From contig NZ_JAAGPD010000009.1 in NCBI RefSeq assembly GCF_017104565.1, positions 203,640-267,639 on the forward strand: DNA of 64,000 bases, given 5' to 3'. A model generated the notes under the pieces. It searched no databases and was not told the DNA's origin. It was given only the letters and a program-made list of their open reading frames with translations. Positions 11,842-62,926 of the stretch are shown piece after piece. The stretch comes from Paraburkholderia sp. Tr-20389 (GTDB taxonomy: Bacteria > Pseudomonadota > Gammaproteobacteria > Burkholderiales > Burkholderiaceae). The first letter of the stretch is position 1. Each line of letters starts with the position of its first letter. The position numbers were made by a program, and so were the translations under genes.

Positions 11842-12744
11842 ATGCACATCCACCCGAATTTCGATCCCGTCGCCATCCATCTGGGGCCGCTCGCCGTCCG
11901 CTGGTACGGCCTGATGTATCTGGTCGCCTTTGTCATGGCGATCGTCGTGGGCCGGCTGCGGCTGCGTCTGCCGCACGTCGCCGCGCAAGGCTGGACGCCG
12001 AAGGACATCGACGACATGCTGTTTTACGGCGTGCTCGGCACGATCCTCGGCGGGCGCCTGGGCTACGTGCTGTTCTACAAGGCGAGTTGGTACTTCGCGC
12101 ATCCTCTCGATGTCTTCAAGGTCTGGGAAGGCGGCATGTCGTTTCACGGCGGCTTTCTCGGCGTGACGCTCGCGATGATTCTGTTTGCATGGCAGCGCAA
12201 GCGCACGTGGCTGCAGGTGACGGACTTCGTCGCACCGATGGTGCCGACGGGTCTTGCGGCGGGGCGCCTCGGCAACTTCATCAATGGCGAGTTGTGGGGG
12301 CGTGTGACTTCGCCCGATGCGCCGTGGGCGATGCTGTTCCCGGGCGCCGCGAACGAAGACGCGGGCTGGCTTGCTGCGCATCCGGCGCAGGCTGCGCAAT
12401 GGCATCTCGCCGATGTATTCGCGCAATATCACATGTTGCCGCGACATCCGTCGCAGTTGTATGAGATCGCACTCGAAGGTGTCGTGCTGTTTCTTGTGCT
12501 GTGGTTCTTTTCGCGGAAGCCGCGGCCTGTAGGTGCTGCATCGGCCGTGTTTCTGATTGGGTATGGGCTTGCGCGGTTTACCGTCGAGTTCGCTCGGGAG
12601 CCGGATGATTTTCTTGGGTTGCTGGCGCTTGGGTTGTCGATGGGGCAATGGCTTTCGCTGCCGATGATCATCGGCGGTGTCGTTATGTTGTTGTGGGCGT
12701 ATCGGAGGAATGGGCGCTCGGCCGCGCAGGTTGCCGGTGTTTAG
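11842..12744 (+). CDS. lgt: Prolipoprotein diacylglyceryl transferase
   Basis: A 300-residue polytopic inner-membrane enzyme that transfers diacylglycerol to the lipobox cysteine of prolipoproteins. The conserved MSFHGGFLG segment and the family signature [14 protein letters not shown] (about 137-150) are intact. Several lipoproteins in this window (OmpA-like, SodC-like, CsgG-like, DUF4810, DUF799) would be its substrates. A short hairpin with a T tract follows the stop codon. Confidence 0.95.
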
Positions 12745-12751
12745 TTTGTCT

Positions 12752-12782
12752 GCGACGCTAGTCGCTCTGTTTAGGTTTTTTT
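12752..12782 (+). terminator. Terminator-like hairpin after lgt
   Basis: A 5-bp stem GCGAC/GTCGC with loop GCTA (12752-12765) is followed by a run of eight Ts at 12775-12782. The same hairpin occurs in reverse at 13456-13469, so both may belong to the ends of the palindromic element between them. The stem is short and the T run begins about 9 bases later, so termination strength is uncertain. Confidence 0.45.
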
Positions 12783-13043
12783 TGAGGCTGGCGTCCGCGT
12801 GATGCCTCTGGTTCGCTAGTGTTGCCCCTGTGCGGGGCGGCACTTACTTTCTTTGCCGCCGCAAAGAAAGTAAGCAAAGAAAGCGGGCTCACACCGCCAA
12901 TCCTTGTTGTTGCCTGCGGGCCCCCAACTGTTCTTACGCTTCACGCGGCAACGTGCTCGCTTGCGCCCGTTGCCAGCGTGCTAACTGGACGCATCACGCG
13001 CTTCACATTCCCGCGTCACGGCCTGCCTTACCAAGCGTTCACC

Positions 13044-13179
13044 GCCGCCCAGGTGGCAAACTGTGTGTAGGCTGTCGCACCGTATGCGTTCGCGTTCCTA
13101 CGACACCGATCCCGTTTTTTCGTCCGGAGTGGTGCATCTACGTCGCGATGGCCTACACATAGTTTGCCACCTGGGCGGC
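13044..13179 (+). repeat. Central module with 29-bp inverted repeats, 13-kb copy
   Basis: Inverted repeats 13044-13072 and 13151-13179 match at 28 of 29 positions and enclose 78 bases. This centre matches the centre of the 59-kb element only after reverse complementation (about 66 of 78 positions by eye). The arms outside match in the same orientation. Confidence 0.85.
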
Positions 13180-13455
13180 GCAGATGAATCGCTGCCGCTG
13201 GCTGCACTGTGGGTGATTGGAGAGGGTGATGCGCCTGTTCAAGGCGCTGGCAACGGGCGCAAAACGATGGGTTGCCGTGTGGAGTGCGGGACCGGTTGGG
13301 GGCCCGCAGGCAAGTACAAAAGCTGGCGGTGTGAGCGGCTTTCTTTTGCCTACTTTTCTTTGCCGCTGCAAAGAAAAGTAGGTGCCGCCCCGCACAGGGG
13401 CAACGCATGAAGTACGAAGGCACAACGCGGATGCCAGCAAAAAAACCCCAAAACG

Positions 13456-13469
13456 GCGACTAGCGTCGC
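13456..13469 (-). terminator. Terminator-like hairpin after the SIMPL gene
   Basis: A GCGAC/GTCGC stem with loop TAGC is followed on the minus strand by T-rich sequence (CGTTTT, then seven Ts). It mirrors the hairpin after lgt and marks the right end of the palindromic element. Confidence 0.45.
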
Positions 13470-13482
13470 AGACATAAAAACA

Positions 13483-14205
13483 TCACTTCATCTGCACGGA
13501 CCCAGACACGTTAACGGTCACAGTCGAAGTCCCACCCTCGACAGGCACAGGAGCAGCGGCCTTAGCGCTCACATCCGACCGCATGCTCATCATCATCACG
13601 GGCCGCGGCGGTACGCCGCCGCTATGCCCGACGCTCACTTCGCGGATCGTATAGCCGCTGTAGCCAAACGCCTGCGCCGACGCCGTCGCCTGCTGTTTGA
13701 AGGAAGCGATTGCCTGACCCGTCAGCTTCTGCTCGGCAGCACGCTGCGCCTCCGGCGACAAAGAGAACTGCACATTGCCAACCTGCATGATCGAAGCAAT
13801 CTGTCCCGCGAGCTTCGACGCCGCCGCGAAGTCGTGCGACTCCAGCACGATCTCCGTGCGGCCGCGCCACGCGGAAATGCGTCCATCGCGATCCGTCGAC
13901 GGATAGATCGAGAACGACCCCGTGCGCGCCGTCACGCCGCTCACGCCCTTGGCCTTTTGCAACGCCTGGTCGGCATGCTGGTTCAGCGTGCCCGTCAACG
14001 ACGACGGATCGCTCGCTTCCTGTTCGTAGAACAGCGTGATGTCGACGACGTCCTGCGGCACTTCGGCGCTAGCCTGCGCGTTCAGCGACAGCACACCGGC
14101 CGGCTGATACTGCTGCACAACGGTTTGCGCATTGGCCGCAGCGGCCGTGAGCGCGAGTGCGAGCGGCGCCGCGAGCGTCCACACGAGCGCGGATTTTTTC
14201 GTCAT
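13483..14205 (-). CDS. SIMPL-domain (DUF541) periplasmic protein
   Basis: A 240-residue exported protein with a cleavable signal peptide ending near ANAQ (about residue 26). The rest is a SIMPL/DUF541 domain, including the TARTGSFSIYP and GYTIREVSVG stretches seen in this family. The ATG at 14205 follows an AAGGAG site at an 8-base spacing, so longer starts are rejected. SIMPL proteins are envelope proteins of poorly defined role; some are linked to oxidative stress. It stands alone between the repeat element and the EVE gene. Confidence 0.82.
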   Translation of the reverse strand: MTKKSALVWTLAAPLALALTAAAANAQTVVQQYQPAGVLSLNAQASAEVPQDVVDITLFYEQEASDPSSLTGTLNQHADQALQKAKGVSGVTARTGSFSIYPSTDRDGRISAWRGRTEIVLESHDFAAASKLAGQIASIMQVGNVQFSLSPEAQRAAEQKLTGQAIASFKQQATASAQAFGYSGYTIREVSVGHSGGVPPRPVMMMSMRSDVSAKAAAPVPVEGGTSTVTVNVSGSVQMK

Positions 14206-14402
14206 TGTTCGACTCCTTCGTTGAGCAGGTTGTGCGTGCATGCATCGGCGCATACGTTTGCCGCCGGGTTCGCTCGGCGCGAGTGGCATGACGCTTGCGA
14301 GGCGATTAGGCGCCTGAAAGGGTCGTCTGGTTCCCCGAGTCTCTCTTCAAATCTCGCTCGAAACTAATTGTCATGCGCCGAGCGAAAACGCTCATCGCGC
14401 AT

Positions 14403-58197: not shown

Positions 58198-58302
58198 GAG
58201 CGGGCTCTATTGTAGCGACAGGAACGGCGCGTGCGAACAGGCGGGCCGCTTCGGGAATTCGACCTCACCTCACAAACGACCCAGAAAGGGCGGGAGCACA
58301 CG

Positions 58303-59055
58303 ATGAAGCATCACGATCAGGTAGCCGATGCATTCGGCTCGACGGCGGCCGCGTACTTGACGAGCCAGGTACACGCAACGGGGGCGGATTTGCAGACGCT
58401 GGCGGCGTCGGTGGCCGCGACGCCGGGCGCGGCGGTGCTCGACATGGGTTGCGGCGCGGGGCACGCCAGTTTTGCCGTGGCGCCGCATGCGGGGTCGGTC
58501 GTCGCATATGACATTGCGCAGCAGATGCTCGAGACGGTTGCCGGCGCCGCCGTGGAGCGCGGCTTTTCGAATATCCGTACGCAGCAGGGCGCGGCCGAGA
58601 AATTGCCGTTCGCGGATGCGTCGTTCGACTGGGTGATCAGCCGGATGAGTGCGCATCACTGGCACGACGTGCCGCTCGCGCTCGCCGAAGTGCGGCGCGT
58701 GTTGAAGCCGGGTGGGCGCGTGCTGTTCATCGACATTGCCGGGAGCGATCATCCGTTGCTCGATACGCATTTGCAGGCGGTCGAGGTTCTGCGCGATGGC
58801 TCGCATATTCGCGATTATCGCGGGGATGAGTGGATTTCATTTTTTGCTGCCGCAGGCTTTGAGGCTGTTGTGCGCGAGCGCTGGAGACTGGAGATCGAGT
58901 TCGCCTCGTGGGTGGCGCGGATGAAGACACCCGAGGCTCGTGTTGCTGCTATCCGGTCTTTATGGGCTTTTGCCCCGGATGAGGTTCGGGAGTATTTCGA
59001 TGTCTTGCCGGATGGGTCTTTCAAGCTCGATGCTTTGATGATCGAGGCTTCGTGA
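58303..59055 (+). CDS. Class I SAM-dependent methyltransferase (UbiE/Methyltransf_11 type)
   Basis: A 250-residue Rossmann methyltransferase. SAM motif I is VLDMGCGAGHASFAVA near residues 46-61. Later blocks AEKLPFADASFDWVISR and EVRRVLKPGGRVLFID are typical of the UbiE-like group. A GGGAG site precedes the ATG at 58303. The substrate is unknown. It is divergent from the XRE/MmyB regulator. Confidence 0.9.
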   Translation: MKHHDQVADAFGSTAAAYLTSQVHATGADLQTLAASVAATPGAAVLDMGCGAGHASFAVAPHAGSVVAYDIAQQMLETVAGAAVERGFSNIRTQQGAAEKLPFADASFDWVISRMSAHHWHDVPLALAEVRRVLKPGGRVLFIDIAGSDHPLLDTHLQAVEVLRDGSHIRDYRGDEWISFFAAAGFEAVVRERWRLEIEFASWVARMKTPEARVAAIRSLWAFAPDEVREYFDVLPDGSFKLDALMIEAS

Positions 59056-59087: not shown

Positions 59088-59760
59088 CTTTGCTGGCATC
59101 CGCGGTTTGCTTCTGGTTTGCTAGTGTTGCCCCTGTGCGGGGCGGCACTTACTTTCTTTGCCGCCGCAAAGAAAGTAAGCAAAGAAAGCGGGCTCACACC
59201 GCCAGTGCTTGTTCTTGCCTGCGGGCCCCCAACAGTTCTTACGCTCCACGCGGCATCGCGCTATTTCATGCGCGTTGCCAGCGTGCTCACTCACGCCTCA
59301 CCCACTTCGCACCCCCGCGCCACGGGCCGCGTTACCAGGCGTTCGCGGCCGCCCAGGTGGCAAACTGTGTGTAGGCCGTCGCGATCGAAGTGCACCACTC
59401 CGGACTGAAAAGCGGGATCGGTGTCGTAGGATCGCGAACGCATGCGGTGCGACGACCGACACACAGTTTGCCACCTGGGCGGCGGTAGACTTTCCGGTAA
59501 CGCGGAGCGTGACGCCGGAGTGGGAAGTGGGTGAGGCGTGCAGTTCGCACGCTGGCAACGCGCATGAAATAGCGCGATGCCGTGTGGAGTGCGGGACCCG
59601 TTGGGGGCCCGCAGGCAGGGACACGGGCTGGCGGTGTGAGCCCGCTTTCTTTGCTTACTTTCTTTGCGGCGGCAAAGAAAGTAAGTGCCGCCCCGCACAG
59701 GGGCAACGCCAGCAAACCCGAAGCAAAACGCGGATGCCACCGAGCGTGCAAAAGCAAAAC
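59088..59760. repeat. Composite palindromic element, copy at 59 kb
   Basis: Second full copy of the 13-kb element, between the convergent methyltransferase and ppc genes. It has the same ordered blocks in both arms: stem-loops at 59148-59179 and 59654-59685, the GGGCCCCCAAC blocks and the inner 29-bp repeats. Left-arm marker GTTCTTACGC and right-arm marker (reverse complement) GTCCCGCACTCC fall on the same sides as in the 13-kb copy. At its right end a ~31-bp unit (AAGCAAAACGCGG-type) is imperfectly duplicated at 59720-59783. No transposase is present. Confidence 0.85.
59348..59483 (-). repeat. Central module of the 59-kb element, inverted relative to the 13-kb copy
   Basis: Inverted repeats 59348-59376 and 59455-59483 (25 of the first 25 inner bases match, then diverge) enclose a 78-base centre. 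This centre aligns with the 13-kb centre only as its reverse complement, while the flanking arms are collinear. Confidence 0.85.
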
Positions 59761-59839: not shown

Positions 59840-62800
59840 TCAACCGGTATTCCTTAACCCAGCCGCAATCCCATTGATCGTCAAATGAATCCCGCGCCGC
59901 ACGCGCACATTCGTATCCCCACCGCGATGGCGCTTCAACAACTCCACCTGCAGGTGATTCAATGGATCGAGATAAGGAAAGCGATTCTTGATCGACCGCG
60001 CCAGCAACGGATTATCGGAAAGACGTTCTTTCTGCCCGGTAATCTCGGACAGCACATTCGACGTGCGCTCCCACTCGGCCACGATCCGTTCGAACACGTG
60101 CTTGCGCAGCTTCTTGTCAGTCACGAGCGCGGCATAGCGCGACGCCACCGCGAGGTCGGTCTTCGCCAGCACCATGTCCATGTTCGACAGCAGATTCGAG
60201 AAGAACGGCCACACCTTGTGCATCTTGCGCAACTGGTTCAAACGGCGTTCACGCTCGGTATTCGTATCCGCCGCATCGAGCCAGCCGGCGACCGCGCTGC
60301 CGAAGCCATACCAGCCCGTCAGCAGCAGACGGCATTGTCCCCATGAGAAGCCCCAAGGAATCGCGCGCAAATCCTCGATCTTGCGTTGCTTCGGATCCTG
60401 CAGCTTGCGCGAAGCGGGACGGCTGCCGATGTTCAGCTCGGCAATCTCCGCAATCGGCGTCGACGAGAAGAAGTAGTCGGTGAAGCCAGGCGTCTCGTAG
60501 ACGAGCGCACGGTACGACGCCATCGCCGCGTCGGACAACACCTGCATCGTTTCTTCGAACTCCGGAAGCTGCGATTTGGGCGCGCTGCCGTGCGGCAGCA
60601 GCGACGCTTCGAGCGTCGCGGCGACCACCGTCTCCAGATTGCGCCGGCCGATGTTCGGATTGCCGAACTTGCTCGCAATCACTTCGCCTTGCTCGGTCAG
60701 ACGGATCTGACCGTCGACGGTGCCGGGAGGCTGCGACAGGATCGCCTGATAGGTCGGGCCGCCGCCGCGTCCGACCGTGCCGCCACGCCCGTGGAACAGG
60801 CGCATCGTGATGCCCCGCTCGTTGAAGAGCGAGACGAGCGCCAGTTCCGACCGATACAGCTCCCAGTTCGACGTCAGGAAGCCGCCGTCCTTGTTGCTGT
60901 CCGAATAGCCGAGCATCACTTCCTGCTCGTTGCCCTGATTCTCGATGATGGCATCGATGCCCGGCAGCGCGAGCAGATCGCGCATGATGTGCGACGCGTT
61001 GCGCAAATCGGGAATCGTCTCGAAGAGCGGGATCACCATCAGGCCAGCGCGCGCCGGATCGGCCGTGCTGCCGAGCGAGCCTTGCAGCAGGCCCGCTTCC
61101 TTTTGCAGCAGCATCACTTCAACGAGATCGCTGACCGTCTCCGTGTGCGAAATGATGTAGTTGCGGACCGCGCGCGCACCGAACTTCTCGCGCGTCACGC
61201 GCGCCTGTTCGAGCACGCCCAGCTCGCTCTTCACAAGGTTCGAATAGGCGACGTACGGCGAGCGCAACAGGCGCGGCTGCGCGAGTTCCGCCATCAGCAC
61301 GCGCAGCTTCTCCGCTTCGGAGAGCGCCGCGTAATCGCTTTCGACGCCCGCGCGCTTCAGCAGCTCCGCGATCACGGCTTCATGAATGTCGGAGCTCTGG
61401 CGCAGATCGATGCTCGCGAGATGGAAGCCGAACACTTCGGCCGCGCGCGTCAGGGGCGACAGACGCGGCGTCGCGAGCGACGCGCCATGATGCTCGGCGA
61501 GCGAATCGATCAGCACGTGCAGGTCGCGCACGAACTCCGACGAATCTCCGTAGGGCACGGCGCGGATCGGCGGAATGCCGGGACCGGCGCTGCGCACGGG
61601 CACCACGCCTTCGCCGAGACGCACGCGCGCGCTCGCGGCAAGGCGCGTGTACATGCCGATCAGCGCGCGACGATACGGCTCGTCGGTGCGGTGCGGCGAG
61701 TGATCGGGCGACGCTTCGGCGAGCGCCTTCAACTCGTCGCTCGCGCCCGCCAGCAGATTCGACACCGACAGTTCGGCGCCGAGCTTGTGCACCTGCTCCA
61801 GATAATGTTCGAAGATCACCGCGGCCTGACGCGTGATCGCGTTTTCGAGTGTCTCGCCCGTTACGTTCGGATTGCCGTCGCGGTCGCCGCCGATCCAGCT
61901 GCCCATCTGGAAGAAGGGCGGCAGGCGCGCATCGAGGCCGTGCTCGACGAGCGCTTCTTCGATATCGGCGTAAAGCTGCGGAATTTCTTCGAGGAACGTG
62001 GCGCGGTAGTACGACAGCGCATTCTCGATTTCGTCGGCGACGGTCAGGCGCGAATCGCGCAGCATGCGCGTCTGCCATAGCGACGTCACGCGTGCGCGCA
62101 GCAGCGAGTCGTTCTGCAGATGCTCGCGCGCCGTCAATGGCTGGTCGCGTTCGGCGAGCAGGCGCGCGATGTCGTGCTGCGCGTCGAGAATGCTCTTGCG
62201 CTGCACTTCCGTCGGGTGCGCCGTCAGCACGGGGACGATCAGCGCGTCGTTGAAGAACTGCTGCAGCACGGGCGTGGCAGCCGCGTTCGCTTCGACCAGA
62301 CGGTCGAGCGCGTGCGCAATCGTGCCCGGTTGCGACAGCGAGCCGGCCAGATCGTGAATCCGGTGCCGGCGGTTGCGATGGCGGTCTTCCGCGATGTTCG
62401 CCAGATGCGAGAAGTAGCTGAACGCGCGCACGACGCTCACCGTCTGTTCGGGCGAGAGCGCGCGCAGTTTTTTGTCGAGCGCCTGTGCCGCGACGCTGTC
62501 GTCCTCGCGACGAAAGCGCACAGCCGTCTGACGAATCGTTTCGACGACGTCGAACACTTCGTCGCCTTCCTGCTCGCGCACCACGTCGCCGAGCAGCCGC
62601 CCCAGATAGCGGATGTCTTCGAAGAGCGGCTGATCCTTGTCCTCGCGCGTGCGGCCGTCGTCCTTCACGACGGCCGCTGCTTTGGCTTTCGACGCTTTAC
62701 CGCCCGCGTCCGCCTTGATCCGTTTCGAGGCGCCGTTGACGGGTGCCTTGGCTTTTATAGCCTTGGTCTTCGTGGATTTGCCGGTTTTGCCGGAGTCGAG

Positions 62801-62926
62801 GGCTTGCGTTGCTTTCAGGGCCTTCGCGGCCTTGGTGGCCTTGGCGGTGGAAGCAGCCGATGCGGGGGCGGCATCGGGCGAGGCAGTAGTGCGGCGGGCA
62901 GGGCGCGCCGATCCGGAAGACGTCAC
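59840..62926 (-). CDS. ppc: Phosphoenolpyruvate carboxylase with Ala/Lys-rich N-terminal extension
   Basis: A 1028-residue enzyme, against about 880 in E. coli. It carboxylates phosphoenolpyruvate to oxaloacetate. The catalytic regions [23 protein letters not shown] and [16 protein letters not shown] are intact, and the C-terminus ends in RNTG. Residues 1 to about 92 are low-complexity Ala/Lys/Thr-rich and lack PEPC similarity; the conserved part begins near [17 protein letters not shown]. No better internal start is evident. It is divergent from hemC. Confidence 0.93.

Follow-up and report, generated by a model that had tools for sequence, protein, structure and literature searches.

A high-copy family of nested palindromes in Paraburkholderia whose interiors are inverted and replaced at largely stable addresses, probably by homologous recombination between their arms

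The analysed stretch of DNA (the window) comprises 64,000 nucleotides of the Paraburkholderia sp. Tr-20389 genome and contains two copies of a large nested palindrome. Both are flanked by convergent gene pairs, element 1 by lgt and a SIMPL/DUF541 gene and element 2 by a methyltransferase and a phosphoenolpyruvate carboxylase gene. The features are listed below in window coordinates.

11842..12744, + strand: lgt (prolipoprotein diacylglyceryl transferase; Pfam LGT PF01790), 3' end towards element 1
12746..13477, no strand: element 1 (12.7-kb copy), whole nested palindrome with reversed centre, delimited by inverted repeats, family consensus and arm alignment
12818..12844, + strand: element 1, left outer arm, inward terminator-like hairpin with T-rich tail (block conservation in the family 0.96-0.99)
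12930..12939, + strand: element 1, left-arm A marker GTTCTTACGC
12961..13042, + strand: element 1, left mid-arm module, A-type (L=AAA)
13044..13072, + strand: element 1, left inner inverted repeat
13073..13151, + strand: element 1, 79-bp centre, reversed relative to the usual arm phase (unreversed in the G020 ortholog)
13152..13180, - strand: element 1, right inner inverted repeat
13181..13262, - strand: element 1, right mid-arm module, B-type (R=BBB)
13281..13292, - strand: element 1, right-arm B marker GTCCCGCACTCC
13384..13404, - strand: element 1, right outer arm, inward terminator-like hairpin
13483..14289, - strand: SIMPL/DUF541 gene (Pfam SIMPL PF04402), 3' end towards element 1
58231..59055, + strand: methyltransferase gene (Pfam Methyltransf_11), 3' end towards element 2
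59088..59760, no strand: element 2 (59-kb copy), whole nested palindrome
59348..59376, + strand: element 2, left inner inverted repeat
59377..59455, - strand: element 2, centre, opposite to that of element 1 and the same as in its own G020 ortholog
59456..59483, - strand: element 2, right inner inverted repeat
59840..62926, - strand: phosphoenolpyruvate carboxylase gene (Pfam PEPcase), 3' end towards element 2

An earlier note on this DNA had described two nested palindromes here, with collinear outer arm markers and with centres matching only in opposite orientation, and all of this was recovered. The inverted-repeat search returned arms at both places: the inner arms of element 1 (13043-13084/13139-13180) were 88% complementary, and for element 2 the outer arms (59094-59291/59542-59739) and inner arms (59348-59382/59449-59483) were 91% and 94% complementary, respectively. 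The markers GTTCTTACGC and GTCCCGCACTCC were located in element 1, and the outer arm markers were collinear in both elements. The two centres (13073-13151 and 59377-59455) aligned at 70/81 positions when one was inverted and at 49/89 in direct orientation. As 500 shuffles gave 45.2 ± 2.2 matches with a maximum of 52, the inverted match was far above chance and the direct one within the shuffle range. No Pfam match at E <= 0.01 was obtained for the 131, 149 and 167 aa ORFs overlapping the elements. The predicted RNA folding energy of element 1 was -508 kcal/mol relative to a mean of -294 in 20 shuffles, a difference that any palindrome gives trivially.

The elements belong to a large family. 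The Tr-20389 genome (8,997,065 bases in 129 contigs) contained 116 + 117 matches to the inner repeat and 126 + 124 to the outer stem, corresponding to roughly 115-125 copies; 110 complete cores were read and 5 half-elements were left out. In G020, the nearest relative, 94 complete cores were obtained among the 100 listed of 118 matches. The family unit is about 650-800 bp long and has three nested levels. In the consensus of the 110 cores, the outer ~225 bp are nearly one sequence in both arms, followed inwards by a B or A module (~115 bp), the ~29-bp inner repeat and an asymmetric centre of 76-79 bp. The A and B modules differ at many positions. Conservation was highest in the outer stem (about 0.93-0.99) and the inner repeat (0.95-0.98), the arm modules and edges being more variable.

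The pairing of the two arms was not accompanied by covariation in the outer stem, where 0.309 of deviant left bases were matched on the right in comparison with 0.328 ± 0.039 for shuffled partners. None was seen in the next block either (0.245 vs. 0.253 shuffled), and in the inner module the value was lower than in shuffles (0.231 vs. 0.313), with slightly higher values for the outer edge (0.281 vs. 0.227) and the inner repeat (0.194 vs. 0.152). Because of the missing outer-stem covariation, pairing there is attributed to the uniformity of the pool and not by compensating changes within a copy.

Among the 118 genomes of the genus surveyed (Tr-20389 included), inner-repeat matches per strand numbered 114-181 in eight, 4-5 in one and a single match in three, with none in 106, a nearly all-or-none distribution. 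In P. caribensis and P. largidicola, 20-26 matches per strand were counted in each of five megaplasmid records, and plasmid records of Caballeronia and Burkholderia matched only parts of the element query. Two places in the Tr-20389 genome had closely spaced centres, ~600 bp apart on contig C115 (L104, ~168995-169597) and ~380 bp apart on C31 (L065, ~83639-84022), which suggests partial copies, tandem or nested. At one orthologous locus of two P. largidicola strains (PGU16 1722117/1722215 and F2 1654168/1654266), an additional inner repeat lay 98 bp from the next one.

The usual phase of centre and arms was set from all 110 copies, because the arm stretch beside the inner repeat of element 2 is A-type on both sides and this copy gives no clean reference. 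With every centre set to the orientation of element 1, 100 of the 110 copies carried B in the left arm and A in the right (the canonical phase), eight were reversed, element 1 included, and two had A/A arms, one of them being element 2. By this standard it is element 1, and not element 2, that is the reversed copy. The G020 copies among the matches listed were canonical in 90 of 94 cases and reversed in four, with no A/A arms. That the centre would change phase within the span of the inner repeats had been proposed earlier; it did so repeatedly in both genomes. The same note held that the idea would fail if centre orientation always followed arm identity, which was the case in 100 of the 110 copies and not overall.

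On trees from quick searches, read without support tests or shuffled labels, the eight reversed copies required 6 changes by centre and 7 by either arm, which suggests that the reversed phase arose several times. All eight had canonical partners in G020. Relative to these, the centre was opposite in four, including element 1, and in the other four the centre was the same and the arms opposite, as in the copy at C128:176288.

The lgt flanks were searched in forty genomes, Tr-20389 included, and 30 loci were returned, among which only those of Tr-20389, G020 and G001 held an element between lgt and the SIMPL gene. The G020 copy had the mid-arm modules on the same sides as element 1 and an inverted centre, i.e., the unreversed phase, so both centre orientations occur at one site. 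The centre of the G001 copy was diverged. The gap was empty in 21 genomes of the genus, and no target-site duplication could be called at this lgt locus.

On a genome-wide scale, flanks identified a G020 partner, among the 94 copies read, for 78 of the 110 copies (centre same in 47, opposite in 31); the 32 copies without a partner were left out of the ortholog counts. Removing five pairs with ambiguous partners, among them the reversed copy C41:60179 although its own match was good on both flanks, gave a clean set of 73 orthologs from 110 Tr-20389 and 94 G020 copies (among the matches listed), with flank identities of 83.3-96.9%. Arms and centre were both the same in 37 of these and both opposite in 25. 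The arms alone were opposite in six and the centre alone in four, with one other arrangement. For the 48 orthologs matched on two flanks, centre orientation agreed in 25 and differed in 23. Where canonical pairs were opposite, the 80 bp next to the inner repeat on its outer side were closer to the partner's other arm (~0.83 vs. 0.65), both sides were about equal at 80-300 bp and the same-side arm was closer beyond 300 bp. This pattern implies that the interior turned and not the flanks, and that the switch point lies inside the arms.

The interiors retained no trace of their address. Centre identity between Tr-20389 and G020 was 0.855 for orthologs in the same orientation (n = 38), 0.881 for those in the opposite one (n = 26) and 0.859 for other pairs (orthologous vs. 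other, p = 0.10), a comparison of 64 pairs of which two were doubtful single-flank orthologs. The mean rank of the true ortholog's centre among all G020 copies read was 0.49 (same) or 0.60 (opposite), and the A and B modules behaved alike, with ortholog ranks of 0.40-0.62. Opposite orthologs were even slightly more similar than those in the same orientation (centre, p = 0.024; B module, p = 0.031). Interiors therefore appear equally alike at the same and at different loci. Saturation could also erase locus memory between these two genomes, though not between strains.

Closer strains gave a finer view of the process. P. caribensis MWAP64 and 852011 were compared at 21 loci with 97.0-99.9% identical flanks; 21 of the 22 MWAP64 copies read had an 852011 partner. 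Their centres were at least 0.97 identical at 9 loci and 0.75-0.93 identical at 12, in comparison with 0.845 for unrelated copies. The interior was wholly opposite at 896053 and 2001705 and the arms alone were opposite at 1049147. Thus only 2 of the 12 changed centres were opposite, fewer than a coin toss would give. P. largidicola PGU16 and F2 shared 16 loci with 97.9-100% identical flanks, with 13 centres at least 0.97 identical (one of them, at 597659, inverted) and three at 0.81-0.93, one of which was inverted with the arms unchanged (1006561). Relative to MBA4, an opposite orientation was found at one of six MWAP64 loci and one of five 852011 loci, both being the same locus. In strains whose flanks are 97-100% identical, interiors have thus been replaced in patches. 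With 12 of the 21 P. caribensis centres differing by more than 5%, the data suggest that exchange is far faster than point mutation. As read from these alignments, the comparisons show addresses that are largely stable and interiors whose inversion and replacement far outpaced change in the flanks.

Three switched copies had long identical tracts in common with a copy elsewhere in the same genome. Exact tracts of at least 100 bp were found in 22 of 5995 pairs of non-orthologous Tr-20389 copies (maximum 335 bp), in 18 of 4371 pairs of the G020 copies among the matches listed (maximum 366 bp) and in one of 190 PGU16 pairs. The reversed C128:176288 and the canonical C48:40379 shared 135 identical bp running from repeat through centre to repeat. 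In PGU16, the copy at 1006561 shared 139 identical bp, repeat to repeat, with that at 1012762, 6.2 kb away. The inverted MWAP64 interior at 896053 shared 218 identical bp, in inverted orientation, with the copy at 787726. Such identity does not in itself establish which copy was the donor. These data have the two marks of gene conversion, namely long identical tracts between non-orthologous copies and orthologs no closer than paralogs. For the centre of element 1, the longest run shared with another copy was 46 bp, with no recent partner, and its reversal may have come about by inversion or by conversion alike.

Taken together, the genome comparisons document recurrent reversal of centres, arms and whole interiors at stable addresses, the replacement of interiors, and identical tracts at other loci. 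The reading considered likely is that these terminator-like repeats undergo homologous recombination through their arms, within and between copies, which moves interiors in either orientation with no need for an invertase. RecA-type recombination would act between the near-identical arms; an exchange within one element would leave the interior inverted, as seems to be the case at PGU16 597659, and an exchange between elements would copy it from locus to locus as gene conversion. Arms and inner repeats look the same whichever side they are read from, so that an interior or centre arriving from elsewhere could land either way. When both exchanges fall inside the inner repeats, the centre would change phase relative to the arms, as in element 1. 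Recombination would be frequent in the long outer arms and rare in the ~29-bp inner repeats, so that the centre would usually keep its phase. Breaks at the palindromes, by SbcCD-type cutting, may start the process. In PMC3315005, a 246-bp interrupted palindrome in E. coli is described as undergoing rearrangements when SbcCD and RecA are absent. That study shows that palindromes of this kind engage both proteins; it serves as an analogy and does not test the present family. Homologous recombination had been one of the routes offered in the earlier note, and it is the one that fits best, but it appears to act between copies too and not within one alone.

In-place inversion between inverted repeats with no exchange between loci, comparable to plastid hairpin-loop inversions, is unlikely as the whole explanation. 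It would suit the opposite centres in 23 of the 48 two-flank orthologs and PGU16 597659, whose centre was identical to that of F2 468899 at 124 of 127 positions when inverted (unrelated copies, 0.74). Its left arm module resembled the right one of F2, as turning in place would predict, and this copy looks like an in-place inversion, with its other arm changed. Replacement without a change of orientation was, however, commoner between strains, and neither the long identical tracts at separate loci nor the lack of locus memory follows from turning in place. As the sole process it is contradicted by PGU16 1006561, with its 139-bp identity 6.2 kb away, and by centres that changed with unchanged orientation.

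A dedicated site-specific invertase acting at the ~29-bp inner repeats, with the centre as a phase-variable switch, is considered quite unlikely; a site-specific recombinase had been another of the routes offered earlier. Centre-only switches bounded by the inner repeats do exist, these repeats are well conserved (0.95-0.98) and 30 of the 104 ends of shared tracts fell in repeat-edge bins. A mild excess at the repeat edges is nevertheless expected, because the repeats are conserved and the arms differ just beyond them. The remaining ends were scattered along the element, and only 3 of the 52 tracts of at least 100 bp (Tr-20389, G020, MWAP64 and 852011) ran from repeat to repeat, so breakpoints were not fixed, a pattern that suits homologous recombination better than cutting at one set position. 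Switching occurred at two nested levels, whole interiors being inverted in 25 of the 73 clean orthologs, and centres were replaced by other sequence and not just turned, something invertases do not do. Moreover, the reversed phase was a minority (8/110), and the ORFs overlapping the elements gave no Pfam match at the threshold above. On balance, the recombinase route is not supported.

An assembly artefact, in which similar arms mislead the assembler on the orientation or choice of the interior, is very unlikely. The Tr-20389 genome is a 129-contig draft, with outer stems ~100 bp or less from contig ends at C21, C36 and C57, but the pattern recurred in G020 as well as in megaplasmid records from four strains, the inner repeats are just ~29 bp long and the replaced interiors were unlike the ortholog and not merely flipped. 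Turnover by transposition, i.e., excision and re-insertion at the same hot sites with the differences being new insertions, would agree with high copy numbers seen in just a few species and with the near-even orientation at two-flank orthologous sites, yet is very improbable, as interiors changed while the outer arm edges stayed closer to the same-side ortholog, positions were largely common to two species, 21 of the 22 MWAP64 copies read had an 852011 partner, and the REP-associated transposase model NF047646 stayed below its cut-off in all 20 genomes, carriers and non-carriers. The earlier note had also named movement as a cruciform unit; the largely common positions (73 clean orthologs) speak against much recent transposition.

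Returning to the preferred reading of recombination through the arms, a bolder extension is that the palindrome is itself a mobility device, its arms attracting breaks and docking the interior of any sister copy, with conversion alone doing the work of a transposase or invertase. This is offered tentatively and is rather doubtful. If true, it would amount to genome-wide, orientation-blind shuffling of cassettes over a fixed set of more than 100 addresses, a system built on terminator elements in which centres compete as conversion-driven sequences.

The family is located mainly at gene 3' ends, and its members would probably serve as two-way transcription terminators. In element 1, each outer arm contains a hairpin that points inwards and runs into a T-rich stretch (12818-12844 on the + strand and 13404-13384 on the - strand) with interrupted T-runs. 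Five terminator-like sites were detected in 12650-13600, four of them inside element 1, relative to 1.3 in shuffles, and no promoter-like site was found in the same scanned region. In the 21 genomes of the genus whose lgt/SIMPL gap has no element, 18 had a two-way terminator-type hairpin there (at least 12 pairs, A-/T-rich ends), and the remaining three had none or a 7-pair stem under the strict search.

Crude frame calling assigned the genes flanking the 110 copies to convergent pairs in 46 cases, tandem pairs in 56 and divergent pairs in seven, with one undetermined (convergent vs. divergent, p = 4e-8). A crude control of non-coding gaps in the window was also convergent-rich (22/45), with few independent sites and with the elements included. 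By-eye counting of the F2 sites gave 12 convergent pairs of 20 (three of them next to an IS gene), with tandem pairs at 5 sites and divergent ones at 3, and the convergent share exceeded that of neighbouring gene pairs of one stretch (12/20 vs. 8/37, p = 2e-4, by eye).

The outer arm regions also matched the Rfam family Bp1_684 (RF02421) with scores of 32.8 and 28.5 bits (E 3e-5 and 4e-4). Both matches were below the gathering score of 44 and covered 98 and 95 bp alone; they lie at window positions 12759-12853 (-) and 13372-13469 (+), not listed here in order of score. In PMC3521395, Bp1_684 is a B. pseudomallei sRNA candidate from a set of RT-PCR-tested candidates. The outer arm may belong to a terminator or RNA element that is more widespread in the Burkholderiaceae. 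Matches to microRNA families were below their gathering scores and were read as chance matches to a long hairpin.

Among known repeats, the family is most reminiscent of REPs, BIMEs and REPINs, which are likewise high-copy intergenic palindromes with inverted pairing (as outlined in PMC3116915). An intergenic location at 3' ends, typical of that group, was also found here (110 copies, crude frame calling). Judging by titles cited in PMC2267715, REPs and BIMEs have been proposed to undergo gene conversion and to attenuate transcription. REPs are, however, 20-40 bp long or form short doublets, whereas the present units are ~650-800 bp with three nested levels. An association with RAYT proteins was looked for and not supported, as no NF047646 match was over the cut-off in any of 20 genomes and weak matches were similar in carriers and non-carriers. 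Its length, its three nested levels and the lack of any RAYT match over the cut-off place the family outside the REP group.

The neisserial intergenic mosaic elements (RS units and dRS3) also resemble the family as intergenic mosaic modules with inverted-end short repeats, and according to PMC3898611 these NIMEs form arrays of 200-2700 bp, are proposed recombination hubs and include one dRS3 type that is a phage integration site. NIMEs occur in arrays, whereas each locus here keeps one three-level palindrome, of which the contents change. No description of the present family was found in the open-access literature searched (subscription papers lay outside its scope), and the excerpts of PMC2267715 and PMC7186790 contained nothing on it. 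In its workings the family resembles intergenic repeats of the BIME or NIME type that undergo gene conversion.

Two further systems are useful for comparison. In chloroplast hairpin-loop small inversions, the sequence between short inverted repeats inverts in place; both systems invert, but here interiors also swap among more than 100 loci. In the concerted evolution of rRNA and tuf genes by ectopic gene conversion, dispersed copies overwrite each other by homologous recombination. In the present family, the symmetric arms make such exchange orientation-blind, so that conversion can also give inversions. A flipped segment between inverted repeats hence need not imply an invertase, since conversion from another copy looks identical. 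Most work on ectopic gene conversion among dispersed repeats uses a handful of rRNA or tuf copies. The family offers a natural test case for bacterial inter-repeat recombination, with more than 100 marked copies at stable addresses, a two-level orientation marker and close strains, which allow rate, tract length, homology requirement (~29 bp vs. ~225 bp) and orientation bias to be read off directly.

Insertion sequences were repeatedly seen at or inside the palindromes. A Mutator-family transposase gene was located beside the MWAP64 896053 copy (L240, 1525-2545), and a match crossed the same element/IS junction at four further places in G069 and one in G001. The palindromes look like preferred IS targets. 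In the G020 lgt copy (L225, 1859-2770), the right outer arm was broken and adjoined by an rve-integrase gene.
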